In this document: one piece after another, positions 37,176-47,412 of the stretch
Layout of the letters: every line of letters begins with the position of its first letter
Numbering within the stretch: the stretch's first letter is position 1
From: Corallococcus sp. NCRR
GTDB lineage: Bacteria > Myxococcota > Myxococcia > Myxococcales > Myxococcaceae
Length of the DNA: 64,000 nucleotides
NCBI RefSeq assembly: GCF_026965535.1
Contig: NZ_CP114039.1
Coordinates: 9,593,461 to 9,657,460 of the forward strand
Direction: 5' to 3'
Notes under the pieces: generated by a model
Databases searched by the model: none
Seen by the model: only the letters and a program-made list of their open reading frames with translations
Told to the model about the DNA's origin: nothing
Translations under genes and position numbers: made by a program

Positions 37176-38948
37176 TCAGGGCACCGAGTCCCCCGCCACC
37201 GCGCCGGACGGCTTGGGGCGGGTCCAGTGTTCGAGCGCGATGGTGACGGGTCCGGGCAGCAGGGCCTCCTTCTTCGCGCGTGCGTAGGCGGCCCGGGAGT
37301 CCTGGCCCCGGGCATCCAATTGGCGCGCGAGGACCAGGCGGAGCGCGGCGCGCTCTTCCCAGTCCAGCGTCAGGGATTCCACTGGCAGCTTGCCGCTCAG
37401 CACGTCCTGCAACTCGCCGTAGGCCACGTTGGCGCGGCTCGCGTCGAGCATCTTCACCGCGAGCGCTGGGTCCCCCTGCCTTTCGAACTCCGCCGCCAGC
37501 AACAGGCCCGCCTCGACTCCGATGTGGCGGAAGCTCAGGAGGTCGACGGGGGCCACGGCCCGCGCGGCGAACTCGGGCTCCTCGGCGAGCGCCATCAACA
37601 CCCGCGTCGCGATGGCGAGCGGATGCCCCTGCGGTGCGGCTTGCAGCTTCGTGGCGTCCACGCGCTGCCCGAGCGAAGCCGCGAGCCACTCCCCCACCAG
37701 CCCCTCCGGCTCGTTCTTCTGGGCCGCTTCGACGAGCTGCCGCATCACCGCGTTCGCGGTGCCGTCCTGCGCGGCGTGCCCGACCAGCTTCGCGTAGAGC
37801 CGCACGTTCGTCAGCTCCAGCTCCTCCTGCTCCGCATCCTGGAGCAGGTGCTCCGACAGCTTGCGTACCGCCTCCTTGCGGCGTCCCAGCGCCACCAGCG
37901 TGTCGGCGTGCCCGCCCTGGTAGTCCCGGTATTCGGGGTCACTCTGCTCCATCGCCTCCAGCAGCGGCAGTGCCTCCGCCCAGCGCTGCCGACGCTGGTG
38001 AAGCGTCGCCAACGTCCGGAGGGGGAGCGGATCCCCGGGATGGTCGCTCACCAGCTTCTCCAGCCGCTCCGTGGCCCCGGGCTCGGGCTCCACGCGCGAG
38101 AGGAACACGGCGTTGCTCACGGAGCCGGGCTCGCGATCCAGCGCGGCCTGGTACCAGGCGCGGACCTCGTCCTGACGCCCGGCGCGACGCATGTCGTAGA
38201 CCCACAACCGATTGGAATCCACGTCATCAGGATGTGCGTCACGCTGCGCCCGCGCCATGGCGAGCGATGCGAGGAGTCCTTCCTCGCGCGCGAGCACCAT
38301 CCTCGCGGTGACGACCGCGTTCTCCGCGTCCGGGGTCTCCGGCAGGGCCTTCCAGAGCCCATCCACCAGACGGGTCGCATCCGCCGTGCGGTGGAGGGAC
38401 ATCAGCCAGCCGAAGCTCGTCTTCCAACCGCCCTTCGCCTGCCCCAGATGGATGCGCGTGGTGGACCGGCCCTCCTCCTTGCGCATCGAAAGCCGCTCGG
38501 GCGGTGAGGTGAGCACGTAGTCGATGCGCCCCAGGTGCTGGAAGGTGGTGCCCGCCAGGGCCCGGGGCGCCACCTCCTGGGTGTTCGTCTTGTTCAACGT
38601 ATAGGTGACGGACGAACTGTAGAGCGGCGCGACGCCCAGCACGTTGTAGACGAAGAGGCCGCCCTCGTCGGTCACGAACACCGTCTCGTGCGTCAGCGAG
38701 CCCTTCTCGCCCTGGATGTCCACGTCCAGTTCGCCAATGGGCAGCCGCCGCTTCGTGTGCGCATCCGCCGCGAGCGTGAAGCGCTCCTGGCCCGCGATGA
38801 CGGTGACCTTCGTTTCCAATGCGTTGACGAAGAGCACCTCCGCATCGGCGTTGAGGGACCGGGTCGCCCCCACGATGCCGAGCGCGCAGACACCGATGCC
38901 GCCCAGCAACAACCAGCCCCGGCGGGGAGAAGTCGAAGGTGCGCTCAC
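37176..38948 (-). CDS. Membrane-anchored TPR protein, last gene of chaperone operon
   Basis: A protein of 590 residues with one N-terminal membrane helix (about 10-30, WLLLGGIGVCALGIVGA). A beta-rich part follows (about 35-170), then tetratricopeptide-like helical repeats from about 180 to the end, with segments such as EPGSVSNAVFLSRVEPEPGA and RTLATLHQRRQRWAEALPLL. The bulk is probably periplasmic. The start is the GTG at 38948, overlapping the stop of the J-like gene as GTGA. It is the fifth gene of the unit and may recruit or hold substrates for the Hsp70/J-like/Lon proteins; this is contextual inference. Confidence 0.75.
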   Translation of the reverse strand: MSAPSTSPRRGWLLLGGIGVCALGIVGATRSLNADAEVLFVNALETKVTVIAGQERFTLAADAHTKRRLPIGELDVDIQGEKGSLTHETVFVTDEGGLFVYNVLGVAPLYSSSVTYTLNKTNTQEVAPRALAGTTFQHLGRIDYVLTSPPERLSMRKEEGRSTTRIHLGQAKGGWKTSFGWLMSLHRTADATRLVDGLWKALPETPDAENAVVTARMVLAREEGLLASLAMARAQRDAHPDDVDSNRLWVYDMRRAGRQDEVRAWYQAALDREPGSVSNAVFLSRVEPEPGATERLEKLVSDHPGDPLPLRTLATLHQRRQRWAEALPLLEAMEQSDPEYRDYQGGHADTLVALGRRKEAVRKLSEHLLQDAEQEELELTNVRLYAKLVGHAAQDGTANAVMRQLVEAAQKNEPEGLVGEWLAASLGQRVDATKLQAAPQGHPLAIATRVLMALAEEPEFAARAVAPVDLLSFRHIGVEAGLLLAAEFERQGDPALAVKMLDASRANVAYGELQDVLSGKLPVESLTLDWEERAALRLVLARQLDARGQDSRAAYARAKKEALLPGPVTIALEHWTRPKPSGAVAGDSVP

Positions 38949-41206
38949 GGCCGGGCCTCCTGGACAAGCGTTGAAGCAGTCAGCAACAGCGGGCGGCGAT
39001 CGCCCGCACCGGGCAGGTGCCAGCGATCCACCCACCCATGAAAGAGGACCTCGGAGGCGCGCGGATCCGCCGCGTCCGCCACGAGCTCCAGCGGCGGCAC
39101 CTTCACGTCCAGGCCTTCGTGCTTCACCGACCAGACCCGCTGGGACGGCGAGCCCCCCTGGACCGCTTCCTTCACGTGCAGGGTGAGCAACGGCGGGCCG
39201 TCCACGGGCAGCCCCCGGCCTCCGTCCACCACGAGGACACCCCGCCCCAGCGCTTCATCCACCATCCGTTGCCAGGCGCCCACGAGCAGGTCCGACGGGT
39301 CCGGAGTCCCCTTCCCAGCGGTCGCCGCCCACCGCACGGTGACGCGACGGCTGTGATTGCGCGAGACGGCATCGAGCAGGCTCGTGAAGAACGCTCGGGA
39401 CGGCGCCGCGGCGCTGCCTGGATCCAACCGCGCTTCCATCCGCGCGCGCGCCCTGGCCAGCTCCGCGTCCACGCGGGCCTGGAGCTTCGGGGCGAAGCGG
39501 GGGTCGGGCCGCTCGCGGAGGTATTCGAGCATGGAGGCCAGGTCTCCCTGGGAGGCGACGCGCGTCCAGGCATGTGCCGCCGCGGTCTGCCTCTGCGGCC
39601 ACACGGCTCCGGCCACCAGCAGCACGCCCACGCCCGCCGCGGCGAACACGCCGGGCCAGGACGAGCGTACGTTCTCCGCGCGCACGTGGCCCTTCTTGTC
39701 CGCTCGCGCCAGCAACGCCGGAGGCAGGTGCTCCACCCCACTCTCCGCGTCCAGCATGCCCCGGCCCAGCAACTCCAACACGCGGCGGCGCCGGGCAATC
39801 AGCTCCTGCGCCAGCGCCTCCGCCTTCTCCCTGCCGTTCACCGGCAGCGTCATGCGCTGGTCGTTGAAGCGCATCTCGATGGCCGTGAACTGGTAGGCGC
39901 CGTTGACGTGACGGTTCACCAACTGCAGGTCCTGCAGGTGCACGAGCGGCCACACTGTGATTCGGTCGATGGCCACCTGGATGAGGTGCAGCGGGTGGAT
40001 GGTGTTGAAGCGCCCATAGGGGCTCGCCATCACCCGCAGGAGCCTGCGCGCCAGGGTCCAGGTGACGCCGGAGAAGAGGGCCGCGAAGAGTGCGCACCAG
40101 CCCCAATCCGAGACATCGCGCTCGGAGATGCCGAAGGAGATGAAGGCCAGGAGGAAGGCCGTGGCGGCGGCTGCCGCCAAGGTGAGGATGGCTGGCATCA
40201 CCCAGGTCATCACGGCGCGCCAGCCGTCGGCCCGCTCGGCCTCTTCGTGCAGCCATTCGCGGGTGACAGGCGGCAGCGCGTCCACGTCCAGGACGACGCG
40301 CGTCGGATACGCGACCTCGGTGGCGCTCTCCGGGTTGAAGCGCCGGCCGAACGCGAGCAGTTGGTTCGCGCCCTTGGACTTCTGCTGGGCGAAGAGGTGC
40401 GCGGCGGCCGAGGAGAGCTGGCCTCCGGTCCAGCGGCGCAGCTCGGGGTCAGCGCTCTCCGGCAGCTCGGCGTCGAGCCGCTCCAGCTCCTTCTCGGCGT
40501 TGGCCTCCTGGCCGAACTCCAGCATCGTCGCGATGCGCCGCACCTTGAGGGCGAGCACGTCCATCCGCGAGATGCCGGGCAGCGACTGCGCCTCCTCGAG
40601 CACCTTGAGCGCATCCGCCACCTGCCCCATCGCCTCCAGGCAGTCCGCCAGCGCCACGCGCGGGCTGACTTCCGACGGGCCATGCTTGCCCGCGCGCCAG
40701 AAGGCATCCGCGGCCTCCTTCATCTGCTCCAGGCGGAGCAACGCCCAGCCCCGCTGCAGGTGCCCCTGCCAGTGGTCCGGTGCCCGCGCGAGCAGGGCGT
40801 CGAACTCCGCCAAGGCCTCCTTGGCGTCCCCTTCGTAGAGGAAGTGACGGCCCAGCAGGATTCGCGCGTCGTGGAAGTCCGGCTGCTCGTTGAGCACCTC
40901 GGTGAGGAGCCTGCGGCCACCGACCTTGTCACCTGCCTCGAACAGGTTGATGGCCTCCTGGATGGCGGCGTTCTTCACCGCCTCCGGGCCGTCCGCCTGT
41001 TGCGCGGTGCTGGCGTCGAAGGCCTGGCGTGCCTCGGGGTCGGAGAGCAGTTCGTACGCTTCGCGCAGGCGCCGGAACTCCTCCGGGTGCGTCTCCGGCG
41101 GGTTCTGCCGGACACGTTCGAAGTAAGCCTTCTTGATGGCGCGGGCGTCCGCGTCCTGCGCGACGCCCAGCACCTCGTAGGGGTTCTGGCGGGGCTCGTT
41201 GTTCAC
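38945..41206 (-). CDS. Membrane J-domain-like protein with TPRs and PPE in place of HPD
   Basis: A protein of 753 residues. About 8-65 is a J domain (NPYEVLGVAQDADARAIKKA, then RRLREAYELLSD), but the HPD tripeptide needed to stimulate Hsp70 ATPase is PPE (residues 36-38). TPR-like repeats cover about 80-290. Two membrane helices (about 335-395) are followed by a cytosolic domain with HLQDLQLVNRHVNGAYQFTA, a third helix at about 525-545, and a C-terminal region of about 200 residues likely outside the inner membrane. GTG at 41206 overlaps the stop of the TPR-Lon gene (GTGA). It probably pairs with the Hsp70 two genes upstream by a non-canonical mode. Confidence 0.8.
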   Translation of the reverse strand: MNNEPRQNPYEVLGVAQDADARAIKKAYFERVRQNPPETHPEEFRRLREAYELLSDPEARQAFDASTAQQADGPEAVKNAAIQEAINLFEAGDKVGGRRLLTEVLNEQPDFHDARILLGRHFLYEGDAKEALAEFDALLARAPDHWQGHLQRGWALLRLEQMKEAADAFWRAGKHGPSEVSPRVALADCLEAMGQVADALKVLEEAQSLPGISRMDVLALKVRRIATMLEFGQEANAEKELERLDAELPESADPELRRWTGGQLSSAAAHLFAQQKSKGANQLLAFGRRFNPESATEVAYPTRVVLDVDALPPVTREWLHEEAERADGWRAVMTWVMPAILTLAAAAATAFLLAFISFGISERDVSDWGWCALFAALFSGVTWTLARRLLRVMASPYGRFNTIHPLHLIQVAIDRITVWPLVHLQDLQLVNRHVNGAYQFTAIEMRFNDQRMTLPVNGREKAEALAQELIARRRRVLELLGRGMLDAESGVEHLPPALLARADKKGHVRAENVRSSWPGVFAAAGVGVLLVAGAVWPQRQTAAAHAWTRVASQGDLASMLEYLRERPDPRFAPKLQARVDAELARARARMEARLDPGSAAAPSRAFFTSLLDAVSRNHSRRVTVRWAATAGKGTPDPSDLLVGAWQRMVDEALGRGVLVVDGGRGLPVDGPPLLTLHVKEAVQGGSPSQRVWSVKHEGLDVKVPPLELVADAADPRASEVLFHGWVDRWHLPGAGDRRPLLLTASTLVQEARP

Positions 41207-42723
41207 CGTCGCTCCAATCCTGGCGTGTTCACGGCCGCGTTCACGAGCCGCCACGCCTCATCCAAGCTGTCCACCGCGATCAATCGCAGGCGTCCGGAGA
41301 CTTCCGGCGGCAGCGCCGCCACGTCGTCCAGGTTGCGGCGCGGGTGCAGCACCACGCGCATGCCTTCGAGGTACGCGGCCACCAACTTCTCGTGCACGCC
41401 GCCCACGCGCCGCACTTCACCGTTCAGCGTCAGTTCGCCCGTCACGGCCAGCCGCGCGGGCAACAGGCGCTGCGTGTACGCGGAGAGGCCCGCCAGCGCG
41501 AGCGCGAGCCCGGACGACAGGCCGTCCTTGCCGACCTCCGTGTCGGTGTAGTGCAGGTGCAGGTCGTAACGGGTCGTGAGCGTTCCCAGGCTCAGCGCGG
41601 GAGCACGAGCGCGCACCACGCTGAAGGCCACGTCCGCGGCCTCCTGGCCTTCGGGCCCCACGCGGCCACTGCACCGCAGCACGCCGCGCCCGGGGACCGC
41701 GATCGCCTCCAGGGGCGAGACATGCCCGCCTCCCGGGTGCCAACCGAGCACGCCCACACGTCCGATCAAAGGCAGGTCACGCGCGAGCTGACGGCGACGA
41801 TGGGCGACTTCCGCCTCACGGCCCGTCGCGGCCAGGGACTCTCCGTTGGCCGCCGCGCGGACATAGAACTCCCGCGCCTCGTCCAGCGCTCCGGCTTCGA
41901 GCCGCAGGTCTCCCATTCGCAGCGCCGCGGCCCCCGGTGCCCCCGTAATGTCGAGTACGGCGCGACGGGCCTCTTCGACCTGGGCTTCGGGACGTCCCTC
42001 CACCCACAGCAACTCCGCGCGAAGCATGGCCGCTGCGGCGCTTGTCCGGCTCGTCGCGGGTGCGGTGACGAGCTGCCGCTTCACCTCCGCGAGCGCGCCC
42101 CGGGCGAGCGCTTCGACGGCGGCGTCGAGCTTCGCCTCGGAGAGCGCGGCACGCGCCGTGGGCAGCTTGAGGGCCTGGATGGCCTGCTCCAGGGGAGGCG
42201 CGTCCAGCATGGCGGTGCTGGCCGGAAGTCCGAGCGCCGTGCGAGCCCCGAGCACCGACTCCGCGAGGCGCGGATCCTCCGGTGCGAGGAGACGGGCCCG
42301 CCTGAGCGCGGGCATCGCTTCAATAGGCCGGTTCGTGCGCTCGCACAGACGGATGATGGCGCGCCAGGCCTCCAGTTCACCGGGCGCGGCTTCGGTGGCC
42401 TCGAACGCATGCACGAGCGCGTCGTCCGGCCGGTCCTCCTCCAGGAAGGTGATCAACTCCGCGCGCAGGGACGCATCGCGAGGCGCTTCGCGAACAGCCG
42501 TCTCCAACAGCTTCAGCGCATCCGTCCGCTTGCCGTCGCGTGCCCAGGCTCCACACAGGAGGCGGCGCGCGGGCCCACCTCCGCCCAGGTCCAATGCCTT
42601 GCGTGCGTGCTCCGCGGCTCCGCGAAAGTCACGCTCCTGGAAGAGCGCTTCGGCCAATGCCAACCGCGCGGAGGGCTCGGCCGGACGCAGCACCACCGCA
42701 CGCTTGAGCTCGGTCAGGAGCAT
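41203..42723 (-). CDS. TPR-Lon protease domain fusion lacking an AAA+ module
   Basis: A protein of 506 residues. About 1-310 is helical repeat (TPR-like, for example ARLALAEALFQERDFRGAAE); about 315-500 is a Lon protease domain. The catalytic Ser in KDGLSSGLALALAG lies at about 402 and the Lys in GGVHEKLVAA at about 444, a spacing of about 42 that matches the Ser-Lys dyad of Lon. The preceding TGELTLNGEVRRVGG is the normal Lon segment. There is no ATPase, so unfolding must come from elsewhere, possibly the adjacent Hsp70. The ATG at 42723 follows the Hsp70 stop by 94 bases; its stop overlaps the J-like gene start. Confidence 0.85.
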   Translation of the reverse strand: MLLTELKRAVVLRPAEPSARLALAEALFQERDFRGAAEHARKALDLGGGGPARRLLCGAWARDGKRTDALKLLETAVREAPRDASLRAELITFLEEDRPDDALVHAFEATEAAPGELEAWRAIIRLCERTNRPIEAMPALRRARLLAPEDPRLAESVLGARTALGLPASTAMLDAPPLEQAIQALKLPTARAALSEAKLDAAVEALARGALAEVKRQLVTAPATSRTSAAAAMLRAELLWVEGRPEAQVEEARRAVLDITGAPGAAALRMGDLRLEAGALDEAREFYVRAAANGESLAATGREAEVAHRRRQLARDLPLIGRVGVLGWHPGGGHVSPLEAIAVPGRGVLRCSGRVGPEGQEAADVAFSVVRARAPALSLGTLTTRYDLHLHYTDTEVGKDGLSSGLALALAGLSAYTQRLLPARLAVTGELTLNGEVRRVGGVHEKLVAAYLEGMRVVLHPRRNLDDVAALPPEVSGRLRLIAVDSLDEAWRLVNAAVNTPGLERR

Positions 42724-42817
42724 GCGAGTTCCTGGAGAGGCATCACGGTCAGGCTCAACGGGCCCGGGGACCGCTGCGCCACCGGGCGCTGGAGTTCGGT
42801 TGACGGCACGTGCTTGC

Positions 42818-44581
42818 TCAGCCCAGGTCGAACAGCAGGTCGGTCAGCTCGGCGTCCAGGCGGGACGCGGCGACGCGGTCGCCCTTCGCGCGGGCCTCGC
42901 GCAAGGCATTGCACAGGGATTCCAGCCGGGGACGCACATGCGCTGGCGCGGTCGCGATCCGTTCGGTCGCCGCGTTCAACAGCGCATCCGCGTCGGCCTC
43001 CGAGGATGCGGGGGCAACCATGGGCACGGGCGTCGCCGGCACAGGGGCCGCGCCCCATTCGCGCGCCAGCCGCTCCTTCGCCTCCAACCGCTGCTCCGGT
43101 CCCAGACGCTGCGAGCGTTTGTCCACCACCAGCGTGGCCTCCTTGCCCGTGGAGACCACCCGCGTCGTCACGTCGAGGATGCCGTTGATGTCATACGTGA
43201 ACGTGACCGCGACCTTCTCCGTCCCCGCGCGCCCGGGCGGCACGCCCTCCACCGTGTACGCGTCCAGCAGCAGGTTGTCCTTCACCAGCCGCGCCTCGCC
43301 CTGGAACACGCGGATCTCCACCGCGCGCTGCCCGTCCGCCGTCGTCGCGAAGGTCTCCGTGCGCGACACCGGCACCGTCATGTTGCGCGGGATGAGCGGC
43401 GAGAAGACCCCTCCCACCCGCTCGCGCCCCACCGATGCCTGCACCTCCACGCCCAGCGTGAAGGGACACACGTCGGTGATCATGATGCCGTGCGCGGCGC
43501 TCACCGCGCCCGTCTTCAGCCCCGCCTGCAACGCGGCTCCCAGCGCCACCGCCTCGTCGGGGTGCACGCCGTCGCGCGGCTCGCGCCCGAAGTATTCGGC
43601 GACCAACCGGCGCACCAGCGGCACGCGCGAGCTGCCGCCCACCAGCACCACCTCCGCGATGGACTTCTTCGCGAGCTTCGCGTCCTTCAGCGCGCTCTCC
43701 ATCGGTTCGAGCGTGGAGCGCACCAGGTCGGTGATGAGCGCCTCGAACCTCGCGCGCGTGACCTCCACCTCCAGCGACGCGGGCGCGCCACCCCGGCCCG
43801 GCGCGAGGAACGGCACGATGACCGGCGTGGCCTCCACAGACGTGAGCGCGATCTTCGCGGCCTCCGCCGCGGCCTTGAGACGCACCTGCGCCGCCAGGTT
43901 CCCGGCCAGCGACACGCCGTGGGCGCGCTCGAACTCCGCGCCCAGCCACGCGGCCAGCGCCTGGTCGAAGTCACTGCCTCCCAGTTGGTTGTTGCCCGCG
44001 GAGGCCTTCACGTCCAGCACGCCCTGGAACATCTCCAGCACCGACACGTCGAACGTGCCGCCGCCCAGGTCGTACACCAGCACGTACTGCTCGGCGTCCA
44101 GGTGGTTCACGCCGTACGCGAGCGCCGCGGCGGTGGGCTCGTTGAGCAGCCGCTCCACCTTGAGCCCCGCCAGCTCTCCCGCGTCCTTCGTCGCCTGTCG
44201 CTGCGCATCGCTGAAGTACGCGGGCACCGTGACCACGGCCTCCGTCACCGCGCCGCCCAGCGCCCGCTCCGCGTCCTCGCGCAGCGCACGCAGGATGAGC
44301 GCGGAGATCTCCGTGGGACTGTAGCGCCGGTCCCCGAGCGTCACCGGCAGGTCGCGGCCCATGCGCCGCTTCACCTCCGCGATGGTGCGCTCCGGATGCA
44401 CGAGCAACTGCGCCCGCGCGGACTCGCCCACGTGGAGACGGCCCTCCGCGTCCAGTCCCACCACCGACGGCGTGAGGCGCTGCCCCAACCGGTTGGTCAG
44501 GAGGTTGGGACGGCCCGCGCTGTCGAGCGCGGCCACCAGGGAGTGCGTGGTGCCTAGATCAATGCCAACGACGTGACTCAT
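42818..44581 (-). CDS. Hsp70 (DnaK-like) chaperone with shortened lid
   Basis: A protein of 587 residues. The ATPase domain is complete: VVGIDLGTTHSLVA at the N-terminus, VPAYFSDAQRQATKDA, LNEPTAAALAYG, DLGGGTFDVSVLE and VVLVGGSSRVPLVRRL. The substrate-binding beta domain (about 370-490) includes ITDVCPFTLGVEV and YDINGILDV. The C-terminal lid is only about 90 residues and has a Pro/Val/Ala-rich insert, shorter than in housekeeping DnaK (about 640 residues). It is a specialised paralogue, and no grpE or classical dnaJ is nearby. The ATG at 44581 is 36 bases after the small membrane protein gene and starts the core of the chaperone operon. Confidence 0.92.
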   Translation of the reverse strand: MSHVVGIDLGTTHSLVAALDSAGRPNLLTNRLGQRLTPSVVGLDAEGRLHVGESARAQLLVHPERTIAEVKRRMGRDLPVTLGDRRYSPTEISALILRALREDAERALGGAVTEAVVTVPAYFSDAQRQATKDAGELAGLKVERLLNEPTAAALAYGVNHLDAEQYVLVYDLGGGTFDVSVLEMFQGVLDVKASAGNNQLGGSDFDQALAAWLGAEFERAHGVSLAGNLAAQVRLKAAAEAAKIALTSVEATPVIVPFLAPGRGGAPASLEVEVTRARFEALITDLVRSTLEPMESALKDAKLAKKSIAEVVLVGGSSRVPLVRRLVAEYFGREPRDGVHPDEAVALGAALQAGLKTGAVSAAHGIMITDVCPFTLGVEVQASVGRERVGGVFSPLIPRNMTVPVSRTETFATTADGQRAVEIRVFQGEARLVKDNLLLDAYTVEGVPPGRAGTEKVAVTFTYDINGILDVTTRVVSTGKEATLVVDKRSQRLGPEQRLEAKERLAREWGAAPVPATPVPMVAPASSEADADALLNAATERIATAPAHVRPRLESLCNALREARAKGDRVAASRLDAELTDLLFDLG

Positions 44582-44617: not shown

Positions 44618-45115
44618 CTAGGACTCTGGCGGCGTCCACGGCTGCGCGGGCGCGGCGACGGGGGCGGCCTCCGGAGCAGTGTACAGATTGCGCAGCTGCG
44701 CCAGGCCCTCCACGCTGATCCCCGCCTCCTGGGCGATCTCCAGCGCGCGCTCCGGCGACGCGTGGGTCACCCACTTCCACTTGTACGAAGCGATGAGCCC
44801 GCCGATGCAGGACAGTCCGACCAAGCCGCTGAAGACAGCGTCCGCCGAATGGCTCCCGGCGAAGGTGAAGAAGCCGGTGAGCAGCGAGATGATCCCCACG
44901 ACGATGAACAGCAGGCGCGCCCACGCCACGAGCACGGACTTGCCGCTCATGGAGATGGCCGAGCCCCGCCAGCCATTGCCCTCCTCGGCGACGACGAGCC
45001 AGCCCTCCAGTGGGATGAGTGGCACGAAGTTGATGTGACCGAACTTCGTCGCCACGTAGCCGACGCCCGGAATCTCATCGACCTTGCCGTAGAGCCTCGA
45101 ACCGAAAATGACCAT
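44618..45115 (-). CDS. Small membrane protein at the head of the chaperone operon
   Basis: A protein of 165 residues, not assigned to a known family. The N-terminal 50 residues (IFGSRLYGKVDEIPGVGYVA and on) form a conserved-looking soluble segment. Two membrane helices follow (about 65-85, LLFIVVGIISLLTGFFTFAG, and about 92-110), then a cytosolic tail of about 50 residues ending Pro/Ala rich. The ATG at 45115 is favoured because GAGGGGG stands 7 bases upstream. It is 36 bases ahead of the Hsp70 gene and probably cotranscribed, so its role may be to tie the chaperone to the membrane. Confidence 0.75.
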   Translation of the reverse strand: MVIFGSRLYGKVDEIPGVGYVATKFGHINFVPLIPLEGWLVVAEEGNGWRGSAISMSGKSVLVAWARLLFIVVGIISLLTGFFTFAGSHSADAVFSGLVGLSCIGGLIASYKWKWVTHASPERALEIAQEAGISVEGLAQLRNLYTAPEAAPVAAPAQPWTPPES

Positions 45116-45310
45116 GTGCTTTCCCCCTCGAACCGTCGCGCGGCGCCGCGAAGGCACCCTGGCGCGTGGGCGCGAATCCTGCGGCACCCGGGCGAACGCG
45201 CGCAATCCCCCGCCCCGGGTAGGACAGCGCCTCACGGCCCCGTGGGCCCGCGCCCTCCAGAACATACGGACCTTGAGAGAAGGACTGGCTCCATGACACC
45301 CCGAGTGCGC

Positions 45311-46147
45311 TCAGGGCCGGTGCACGCAGCGGAACCCCACTCCTGTCAGTCCATTCTTTGGATAGGCGAGGCCCCGGTGGGCGGACCGGAACAGGGATGG
45401 GATGTGATTGAGCCAGGAGCCTCCCCGGTGGACGGGATTCTCCGGAATGCCGGAGGCTTCGGAAGGCGCGTCCTCGCCCAGCCGCTCCTGATAGCCGGTG
45501 GCGGTCCACTGCCACACGTTCCCGGTCATGTCGCAGAGCCCCCAGGCATTGCATCGCGGTCCGGCCTGGACCACCGGGGCCGTGCCGCCAAGGCAACCCC
45601 GCGCCCCGCACGACACCGAGCCGACCACGTGCTCCGCGTCGAACGACTCGCCCCACCAGAAGGTGGAGGCCGTCGAGGCGCGCACGGCGTATTCCCACTC
45701 CGCCTCCGTGGGCAGCGCACCACCGACGAGCTCGCAGTAGGCCCGCGCGGCGCGCCAGTCCACGCAGTTCACGGGATGCTCGGTGCGCTCGGAGTCCAGG
45801 TTGCAGCGGCCGAGCCACCCGTCCGGCGTCTCCGCGTCGGTCCACCAGCGCGTCTGTGGATCCTTCGCGCGCACCTGCTCACGCCGCGCCGCGAAGGCCC
45901 GCGCCGTCACGGGCGTCACGTCCATCTGGAAGCGCTCGAACGCGACCTCCGTCCGGGGCCCTTCATCCACGTCCCGTCCCGGCTCGCCCGCCGGTGAGCC
46001 CATCTCGAAGCGCCCGGCCGGCAGCCACACCGACTCAGGCGGAGCCGCGGGCTCCACACGGATGCCGCCCTCTTTCGCGCTCCCACAGCCCACCATGAGC
46101 ACGAAGAGGGCGACACCCGAACAGCCCCGGAAGGAGATCAAAATCAT
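45311..46147 (-). CDS. FGE-sulfatase/SUMF1-fold lipoprotein
   Basis: A protein of 278 residues. The lipoprotein signal ends VLMVGCGS, so the mature protein is envelope-bound. About 40-278 is the formylglycine-generating-enzyme fold: VWLPAGRFEMGSPAGEPGRD, LPTEAEWEYAVRA, WGLCDMTGNVWQW, HRGGSW and GFRCV. Most bacterial members of this fold are not sulfatase activators; many bind ligands or serve other oxidases. Its Cys content does not settle catalysis. The ATG is 10 bases after the Thg1-like gene and lacks a visible Shine-Dalgarno, so translation may depend on the upstream gene. Confidence 0.85.
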   Translation of the reverse strand: MILISFRGCSGVALFVLMVGCGSAKEGGIRVEPAAPPESVWLPAGRFEMGSPAGEPGRDVDEGPRTEVAFERFQMDVTPVTARAFAARREQVRAKDPQTRWWTDAETPDGWLGRCNLDSERTEHPVNCVDWRAARAYCELVGGALPTEAEWEYAVRASTASTFWWGESFDAEHVVGSVSCGARGCLGGTAPVVQAGPRCNAWGLCDMTGNVWQWTATGYQERLGEDAPSEASGIPENPVHRGGSWLNHIPSLFRSAHRGLAYPKNGLTGVGFRCVHRP

Positions 46148-46157
46148 TCAGGGATTA

Positions 46158-46922
46158 TCACTTCACGCCCTCCAACAACGACAGGATGAAGGCGTCGTAC
46201 GCATTCTTCATTGGCAGCTCGTAGTCCACCTTGAGGCGGCGGCGCTCGGCGAGGACCGTCTCCCCCGTCCTCGGGTCGCGGGCCTCCTTCGTGTACGTCT
46301 CCCGGTAGAGCCCCGTCCCGCGCTTCTGCCAGCTCGGCACGTCGTTGAAGTTCGTGCCCCGCTGGAAGAGCAGCTCGTTCTTCTCCGCCACCGACAGGCG
46401 CTTGAGCAGACCCGTGGCCTCCGCCACGTTCTTCCCTTCGCGGCGCAGGCTCCAGTAGCAGTGCGCGTTCAGCGCGTTCCTCACCGCGTCCTCGCTGCGC
46501 CAGCGGAAGTAGTCGCGCACGAGCTCCGCGTTCGGCAGCTCGCAGATGCGGCAGTCGAACACGGCCAGGTCCCCCAGGAGCAGCGAGAACTTCGCGCTCG
46601 CCTCGCCCGCGAGCAGGGAGTTGAGCTTGCGCGTCTTGCGCCCGAAGGTGTCCTCGTCCGGGTGGAAGAGCAGTGAGATCTCGTCGCTCTGCGTGTAGCC
46701 GTAGACGACCCGGAAGCCGCAGTCCATCAGGTGCCCGGTCGTCGCCACCATCAGGTCCCGGAAGCGCACGTCGAAGGGGCTCTCGAAGGCGTGCACCTCC
46801 TTCGTGAGCCGCGTGAAGCCGCGCCCATCGATGCGCGCCACCATGTACACGCCGGGCAGCACGCAGAGGTCGTGCGCGGTCTCGAACACGCGCATCTTCT
46901 CGTCCAGCTCATCGAACTTCAC
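46158..46922 (-). CDS. Thg1-like 3'-5' polymerase (tRNA 5'-end repair)
   Basis: A protein of 254 residues of the tRNAHis guanylyltransferase superfamily. The palm-domain metal residues are present in RIDGRGFTRLTKE at about 31-43 and YTQSDEISLLF at about 73-83. Family helices with RKTRKLNSLLAGEASAKF and the late RGTGLYRE are also visible. Members add nucleotides to the 5' end in the 3'-5' direction; bacterial forms have been shown to restore truncated tRNA 5' ends on a template. The start is the GTG at 46922, with GGAGGAGTGGCAAC upstream, overlapping the kinase-like gene by 14 bases. It sits beside rnpB, fitting a tRNA 5'-end role. Confidence 0.92.
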   Translation of the reverse strand: MKFDELDEKMRVFETAHDLCVLPGVYMVARIDGRGFTRLTKEVHAFESPFDVRFRDLMVATTGHLMDCGFRVVYGYTQSDEISLLFHPDEDTFGRKTRKLNSLLAGEASAKFSLLLGDLAVFDCRICELPNAELVRDYFRWRSEDAVRNALNAHCYWSLRREGKNVAEATGLLKRLSVAEKNELLFQRGTNFNDVPSWQKRGTGLYRETYTKEARDPRTGETVLAERRRLKVDYELPMKNAYDAFILSLLEGVK

Positions 46923-47358
46923 GTTGCCACTCCTCCACGGTGAAACCGTCCGGCCCCAGCCGGACGAAGAAAAGCGCGTCGAAGCCCTCCTCGAGGTTGG
47001 GGACCTGCAATCGCTTGTACGTCCCGAGCACGCCCACCAGCGGCACCCGCTGCTCCACCGGGCGTTGATCATTCCGCAGGAGCGCGTCCGCGACCTTCGA
47101 CTGGAAGTAGAGCCCCACCACGCGGAAGCCGAACTGCTTCGCGGCCGCGATGTAGCGGGAGCGCTCCGCCACCGTGGGGTTGGTGTTGTCCACCACGAAG
47201 GGCTGCTTCGCTTCCAGGCACGCGCGCAGCAGCACCTTCTCCCGGTGCCGCGTCTTGAGCATGTCCAGGCTCAGGCGGACGTGCGTGGCGAAGAAGCGCT
47301 CCCGGTAGAAGCTGCTCTTCCCCGCCCCCTGGATGCCCGTGAAGATGACCGCTTCCAT
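46909..47358 (-). CDS. Polynucleotide-kinase-like P-loop protein
   Basis: A protein of 149 residues. Walker A GIQGAGKSSF lies at about 8-17, a conserved Asp/Asn stretch VVDNTNPT at about 57-64, and the late segment LVGVLGTYKRL resembles the substrate-binding part of T4-type polynucleotide kinases and related small kinases. It likely phosphorylates a nucleic-acid 5' end or a small molecule. The ATG at 47358 gives a normal P-loop N-terminus; upstream codons are Arg/Gly/Pro rich. It is translationally coupled to the Thg1-like gene and diverges from the RNase P RNA gene. Supplying 5'-phosphate ends for the Thg1-like protein is an attractive inference. Confidence 0.82.
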   Translation of the reverse strand: MEAVIFTGIQGAGKSSFYRERFFATHVRLSLDMLKTRHREKVLLRACLEAKQPFVVDNTNPTVAERSRYIAAAKQFGFRVVGLYFQSKVADALLRNDQRPVEQRVPLVGVLGTYKRLQVPNLEEGFDALFFVRLGPDGFTVEEWQREVR

Positions 47359-47412
47359 GCCGCCCCGCCCCTCTCGCGAAGGCGGACGCACGACACCGCC
47401 CCAACCTGAAGG

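Follow-up and report, generated by a model that had tools for sequence, protein, structure and literature searches.

Bacterial proteolysis that consumes energy generally relies on AAA+ motors, and the LonA-type proteases, among them Escherichia coli Lon, have an N-domain and an AAA+ module besides their proteolytic domain. Lon domains without an ATPase are already known (PMC9569914), LonC and PDZ-Lon being examples. LonC (MtaLonC, TTC1975) has a Lon proteolytic domain without ATPase activity (PMC3391209), together with a degenerate AAA-like module and an aspartate before the catalytic serine; the PDZ-Lon proteins, for example YlbL (PMC6051672) and PDZ-Lon_C (PMC2605481), have a Lon domain without AAA+, which in YlbL is accompanied by an N-terminal transmembrane domain and a PDZ domain. 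Here we describe a gene of Corallococcus sp. NCRR, found in a stretch of 64,000 nucleotides (contig NZ_CP114039.1, positions 9,593,461 to 9,657,460 of the forward strand; hereafter the window) of a genome that consists of one contig of 9,787,125 bases. Its product, TPR-Lon, shares the proteolytic fold and the Ser-Lys dyad with LonA (both E. coli Lon and the Lon proteins of this genome), but lacks the N-domain and the AAA+ module, and helices of tetratricopeptide repeats (TPRs) stand in the place of the latter; these TPRs also distinguish it from LonC, and it has neither the transmembrane domain nor the PDZ domain of YlbL. The gene is part of a cassette with an Hsp70 gene and a gene for a J-like protein, and the available text of PMC6051672 and PMC2605481 mentions no chaperone cassette for PDZ-Lon. 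The idea of a TPR-containing degradation factor recruited by the Hsp70 tail is common to CHIP and eukaryotic Hsp70 (PMC8913300); however, CHIP is a ubiquitin ligase and not a protease, the tail there is EEVD whereas here it is LTDLLFDL, and docking on it is a proposal.

The open reading frame of TPR-Lon (Table 1) is exactly the one delimited in an earlier note on this DNA, made from the sequence alone, which had claimed a Lon protease domain joined to TPRs in place of an AAA+ motor; Pfam and AlphaFold2 agree with that claim. According to Pfam, Lon_C (PF05362) covers residues 313-490 (E 3.9e-35) and TPR families match at residues 5-154 (best E 1.1e-8; TPR_19, TPR_14 and TPR_2 exceed their cut-offs), while ChlI, a Lon-fold family, gives a weak overlapping match slightly below its cut-off. 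No AAA+ family and no PDZ family matched up to E 0.1, a Walker A pattern was also not found, and a hydropathy scan gave no hydrophobic segment. Matches to NCBIfam are partial Lon matches only (113 bits against a cut-off of 608 for TIGR00763), and the model of SepM, a PDZ-Lon protease, scores only 13.0 bits against a cut-off of 200.

The single-chain AlphaFold2 model, computed from an alignment of 14 relatives, has a mean predicted local distance difference test score (pLDDT) of 91.3 and a predicted template modelling score (pTM) of 0.85, and consists of helices at residues 3-314 followed by a Lon fold at 320-498; residues 396-398, just N-terminal of the catalytic serine, have a pLDDT below 50. 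Its Lon part superposes on the protease domain of E. coli Lon (1rr9_E) with Z 26.8 and a root-mean-square deviation of 2.0 over 179 residues at 34% identity (Foldseek, VIA-align). Sequence models see about 150 residues of TPR in this copy, and it is the modelled helices that bear out the roughly 300 residues of TPR-like helices proposed in the earlier note; in two homologues (L050 and L114; loci and genomes are designated by our own numbers) TPR families also match the second half, around their residues 270-345. Since relatives from other genera and Sorangium share the architecture, it is not a product of chance. Long open reading frames at L050 and L051 (1303 and 1248 aa) looked like fusions of TPR-Lon with the J-like protein, but they start upstream in another frame, and TPR-Lon has its own frame with a stop.

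The catalytic residues are Ser403, in KDGLSSG, and Lys446, in GGVHEK; with 42 residues between them (a difference of 43), they have the Lon-like spacing noted earlier, which matches the separation given for Lon proteases in PMC9569914 (the E. coli numbering, S679 and 722, follows PMC2605481). Both are conserved in all 25 relatives examined, at identities as low as about 35%; these relatives comprise 23 aligned TPR-Lon protease domains plus L049 and L128, which have the same Ser/Lys spacing. Homologues without the dyad, which the earlier note had named as evidence against its reading, were not found among the 25. Thr428 is kept in all 23 aligned domains, and His389 and His391 in 22 of them. The expectation that the protease should be active is thus well supported by sequence, and we consider it likely that TPR-Lon acts as a protease.

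The proteolytic domain nevertheless differs from that of LonA. Where LonA has a hallmark proline before the catalytic serine (PMC9569914), TPR-Lon has Leu402 in the window, and the 23 domains have leucine (16), proline (4), alanine (2) or phenylalanine (1), never the aspartate of LonC. Compared with 15 ordinary LonA-type domains (14 of whose 15 frames have a Walker-A-like match), TPR-Lon has GVLGW for TGLAW (22/23), Val335-Ser336 for Leu-Leu (23/23), Leu410 for threonine (23/23), and Leu452 for arginine (22/23). A maximum-likelihood tree places the 23 TPR-Lon domains on one side of a branch with support of 100/100, opposite the 15 LonA-type domains; this comparison is with LonA-type sequences only, none being LonC, and four of the TPR-Lon rows are long-branched. 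The two ordinary full Lon proteins of the same genome share 36% and 31% identity with TPR-Lon.

TPR-Lon occupies the middle of the cassette: the Hsp70 gene lies upstream, a gene for a J-like/TPR protein follows, and in some genomes a gene for a TPR membrane protein comes fourth. Among 22 loci that have the first three genes on one contig, 21 have them side by side with no gene between. In 18 of the 21 loci that include the TPR-Lon stop, all but L052, L053 and L054, this stop is embedded in GTGA or ATGA, which would allow the J-like gene to start with a 4-nt overlap; in the window, the inferred GTG start of the J-like gene overlaps the stop by 4 nt (GTGA). With inferred starts, Hsp70 and TPR-Lon are 6 or 7 nt apart, or overlap, at 12 of the 20 loci measured, including the close relative L039; the distance is 94 to 269 nt in the other eight, which are Corallococcus copies and include the window (42724-42817). 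The fourth gene overlaps the J-like gene by 4 nt in L037 and L044. Loci of genera g1 and g24 contain it where they extend far enough, as do Sorangium (L118) and L128; no match to it was found beside L050, L052, L053 and L114, and the contig of L051 stops short of its position.

The Hsp70 of the cassette has the nucleotide-binding motifs DLGTT, NEPTAA and DLGGGTFD, invariant in 10 of 10 orthologues, and its peptide-binding domain is kept. A variable linker near residues 505-530 is followed by the conserved tail, which reads LTDLLFDLEG, LTNLLFELD, LTELLFELD, LTDVLFALE, LTELLFDLDG or LTDALFDLE in orthologues, and LVDALLELE in the most divergent one. When ends were compared, LTDLLFDL was absent from ten other Hsp70s of this genome, a comparison that left out L069 and the weak partial matches L070 and L072-L075. 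This tail may serve for docking, or it may be where a shortened lid helix ends. No eukaryotic carboxylate clamp was apparent in the TPRs in a by-eye comparison with the motif. Another Hsp70 gene of the genome also has a J gene nearby (L090), but its neighbours have no match to the cassette proteins P0001, P0003 and P0004.

The J-like protein (P0003) matches the J-domain profile PF00226 (E 1.2e-12) and has two hydrophobic segments by the hydropathy scan, which also gave one hydrophobic segment near the start of the fourth-gene protein. The structure model of P0003 (mean pLDDT 81.6, pTM 0.50) is too poor for the arrangement of its domains. A PH-like domain had been guessed at about residues 395-485 of P0003, where Pfam found nothing and the Foldseek matches were filled by TPR proteins, and none is claimed.

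Table 1. Features of the TPR-Lon cassette (positions are those of the window)
Feature	Position	Strand	Basis or description
TPR-Lon gene, 506 aa	41203..42723	-	TPR superhelix and Lon protease domain, without AAA+
TPR superhelix, residues 3-314	41782..42717	-	Pfam TPR 5-154; AlphaFold2 helices; TPR matches in homologues L050 and L114
Lon (S16) proteolytic domain, residues 320-498	41230..41766	-	PF05362; structure match to 1rr9_E
Catalytic Ser403 (E. coli Lon Ser679 by alignment)	41515..41517	-	
Catalytic Lys446 (E. coli Lon Lys722 by alignment)	41386..41388	-	
Dedicated Hsp70 (DnaK-like), P0002; start codon inferred	42818..44581	-	PF00012 E 3.5e-160
Conserved Hsp70 C-terminal tail LTDLLFDLG	42821..42847	-	Alignment of 10 orthologues
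J-like/TPR membrane protein, P0003; GTG start inferred	38945..41206	-	
PPE replacing HPD in the J-like domain, residues 36-38	41093..41101	-	
Membrane-anchored TPR protein, fourth gene; start inferred	37176..38948	-	

A profile search identified TPR-Lon in 21 of the 195 genomes of the set from its own phylum: 14 of the 16 genomes of the genus, two of genus g24, and G128, G129, G033, G020 and G078 (contig ends cut the gene in G129 and G008). In the named collection, close relatives belong mostly to Corallococcus species. Outside the phylum set, TPR-Lon was found in Sorangium cellulosum So ce26 (L118), in a Polyangium metagenome-assembled genome (MAG; L111) and in a Myxococcales MAG (L114); among 377 genomes drawn evenly from the phylum of Sorangium, two have it, Sorangium and G570. 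The distribution is patchy. All matches that have a title or an established kinship are myxobacteria except two records, one with a Comamonas title and one titled only as Deltaproteobacteria, the latter placed in the same order as the host genome. The genome collection was scanned once with two short peptide patterns, so that more distant relatives in other phyla could escape. The record with the Comamonas title (L108, BNCN01000001.1, Comamonas sp. KCTC 72670) has a cassette gene at 74% identity, and its title looks wrong.

Several further candidates were set aside: L120 and L121 are ordinary Lon proteins of 820 aa, and G121 and G122, which had passed an E limit, match through the Lon part alone, their frames being 840 and 1501 aa long, and fall below the profile limit. 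L122 is a weak match (26% over 57 residues). We also rejected the presence of the cassette on plasmids, since none of the 61 plasmid records that match TPR-Lon does so over 80% of the query; among the 20 plasmid matches listed, only the Lon part was matched, and P0003 has one plasmid match, to the J-domain only.

The three genes occur together. TPR-Lon is present in 20 of the 96 genomes of the family (f1), and the J-like protein in the same 20; the Hsp70 type, defined by E below 1e-150 and having 59% identity or more, is present in 19 of these 20 and in none of the other 76. Across the phylum set the Hsp70 type was found in 20 of 195 genomes, all of them with TPR-Lon, and the one TPR-Lon genome that lacks it, G129, has a contig beginning within TPR-Lon. 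At the limits used, the Hsp70 type and the J-like protein are also absent from the two genus members without TPR-Lon (G014 and G015). The co-occurrence has a Fisher p of 5e-21, a value that takes no account of kinship and is therefore too strong; more nearly independent evidence comes from the separate genera and from the joint absence of the three genes in these two genus members. Judged from these gene contents, the cassette of Hsp70, TPR-Lon and J-like protein is inherited as a unit.

A chaperone adjoins TPR-Lon wherever the surrounding DNA is readable, which suggests that the chaperone may feed the protease. We think it probable that TPR-Lon functions together with the adjacent Hsp70. The best explanation overall, on which, taken as a whole, our judgement is evenly balanced, is that TPR-Lon is a soluble, ATPase-free Ser-Lys protease with the Lon (S16) fold that cooperates with the Hsp70/J-like cassette. 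Because a dedicated Hsp70 adjoins, the simplest reading is that TPR-Lon would cut clients that Hsp70 holds or unfolds at the membrane. The TPR superhelix would recruit the protease to the Hsp70/J-like complex, perhaps via the conserved Hsp70 tail, or to clients; Hsp70 would hold or unfold these clients at the inner membrane and pass unfolded segments to the Lon domain, which would cleave them without a motor of its own; and the HPD-less J-like protein would be a scaffold and tether, not the usual ATPase stimulator. Direct docking of the TPRs on the Hsp70 tail is put forward tentatively, as a possibility that we rate below an even chance. Binding of the Hsp70 C-terminus by the TPRs, raised in the earlier note, is plausible and has indirect support from the place of the gene between those of Hsp70 and the J-like protein and from the conserved tail, although this tail is not EEVD. 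We regard as rather unlikely the full form of the proposal, an Hsp70-driven protease in which the AAA+ motor of Lon is replaced in trans by a TPR-docked dedicated Hsp70 that is tethered to the membrane by the HPD-less J-like protein.

Several observations weigh against the best explanation. The His and Asp of the HPD motif are needed for Hsp70 stimulation, and HPD is absent from all 12 aligned J-like domains (PPE in 11, PPD in L128), PPE also being present in 23 of 23 rows of a second J-like set that overlaps the 12; it is therefore doubtful that this J protein drives Hsp70 through a normal cycle. The conserved tail may belong to a shortened Hsp70 lid and have no docking role, and the TPR part is far more divergent among relatives than the Lon part. 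Within the Lon part, L053 lacks both His389 and His391, and position 400 is aspartate in 19 of the 23 domains and glutamate in four. The cassette is also not uniform, since the J-like gene of L052 lies several genes downstream, and G020 (L052, L057) has a second J-like/TPR copy without an Hsp70 or TPR-Lon match beside it. Finally, protease activity of YlbL was undetectable in vitro (PMC6051672), and by analogy an isolated Lon domain may cut only feebly.

The alternative that survives best, although we also hold it to be rather unlikely, is that TPR-Lon is a site-specific processing protease, which cuts one or a few membrane-linked regulators while Hsp70 regulates it or only holds the substrate. 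YlbL and SepM are regarded as proteases of this kind, and the PDZ-Lon proteins are likewise without an ATPase. YlbL interacts with the membrane protein YneA and is genetically linked to its clearing (PMC6051672), and the TPR-Lon cassette includes proteins with hydrophobic segments. Since the cassette is accessory and this genome also encodes two ordinary Lon proteins, it probably does not serve bulk housekeeping, which also suits a processing role. On the other hand, no fixed candidate substrate gene was seen in the cassette neighbourhoods, and the constant neighbour is a chaperone whose peptide-binding domain is intact by sequence, which suits unfolded clients.

Less probable, and in our view improbable, is that TPR-Lon works alone as an ATP-independent scavenger in the manner of LonC, with its TPRs binding the clients and the linkage to Hsp70 reflecting shared stress regulation only. 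TPRs are able to bind peptides, as such a role would need. MtaLonC, which is hexameric, needs no ATP to degrade unfolded proteins (PMC3391209). Co-regulation, however, needs neither an identical Hsp70 subtype nor an identical J-like protein in each genome, and leaves unexplained why the subtype is absent from the other genomes of the set. As for a Lon domain that is no longer proteolytic, the Lon-fold domains of RadA, ChlI and BrxL are not known as proteases. Many S16 groups lack an ATPase or are non-peptidase homologues (PMC9569914), but the retention of Ser, Lys and Thr428 at low overall identity makes it very improbable that TPR-Lon has become a binding or assembly module.

Other genes lie near the cassette. 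A small protein without a clear Pfam family is encoded just upstream of Hsp70 (44618-45265, minus strand), and next to it, also upstream of Hsp70, is a gene for an FGE-sulfatase-domain protein (45311-46147, minus strand); both are kept in many, not all, Corallococcus loci, and a 32% relative of the small protein adjoins the cassette in L051. Farther along are a gene for a Thg1-like tRNA-His guanylyltransferase (PF04446, E 3e-32) and, beside it, an AAA_33 kinase-like open reading frame (PF13671), at 46158-47072 and 46909-47391 (minus strand), which are possibly an RNA repair pair. A reverse transcriptase gene (PF00078, E 1.2e-17) adjoins the cassette in G055 (L046:12406-13773, minus strand).

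We found no report of a TPR-Lon protein or of the cassette in open-licence papers, taken without their supplements. The word TPR occurs zero times in the main text of a 2008 survey of domain architectures in prokaryotic serine proteases (PMC2605481) and in the LonBA paper (PMC9569914). The Stk operon of Myxococcus xanthus, which has the Hsp70 StkA, was considered and rejected as a counterpart: stkA is followed by the gene of StkB, a member of the SCP2 superfamily (PMC4319316), and that paper has no TPR and a single match to lon, in "long-wavelength". A survey of M. xanthus Hsp70s mentions Lon protease once, for Caulobacter, in the text available (PMC8265645). Lon domains without an ATPase are not new in themselves; what we found no published report of is the combination of TPRs in the motor's place with a constant genetic association with a single Hsp70 and a J-like protein without HPD.

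A motorless but catalytically conserved Lon domain in a cassette with Hsp70 raises the question of whether Hsp70 can replace AAA+ as the substrate feeder. The cassette also offers a small system for TPR-Hsp70 recruitment in bacteria, which is best known from eukaryotes, and a J-like partner that is naturally without HPD. If the proposed mechanism is true, TPR-Lon would be a prokaryotic protease with Hsp70 rather than AAA+ as its unfoldase.

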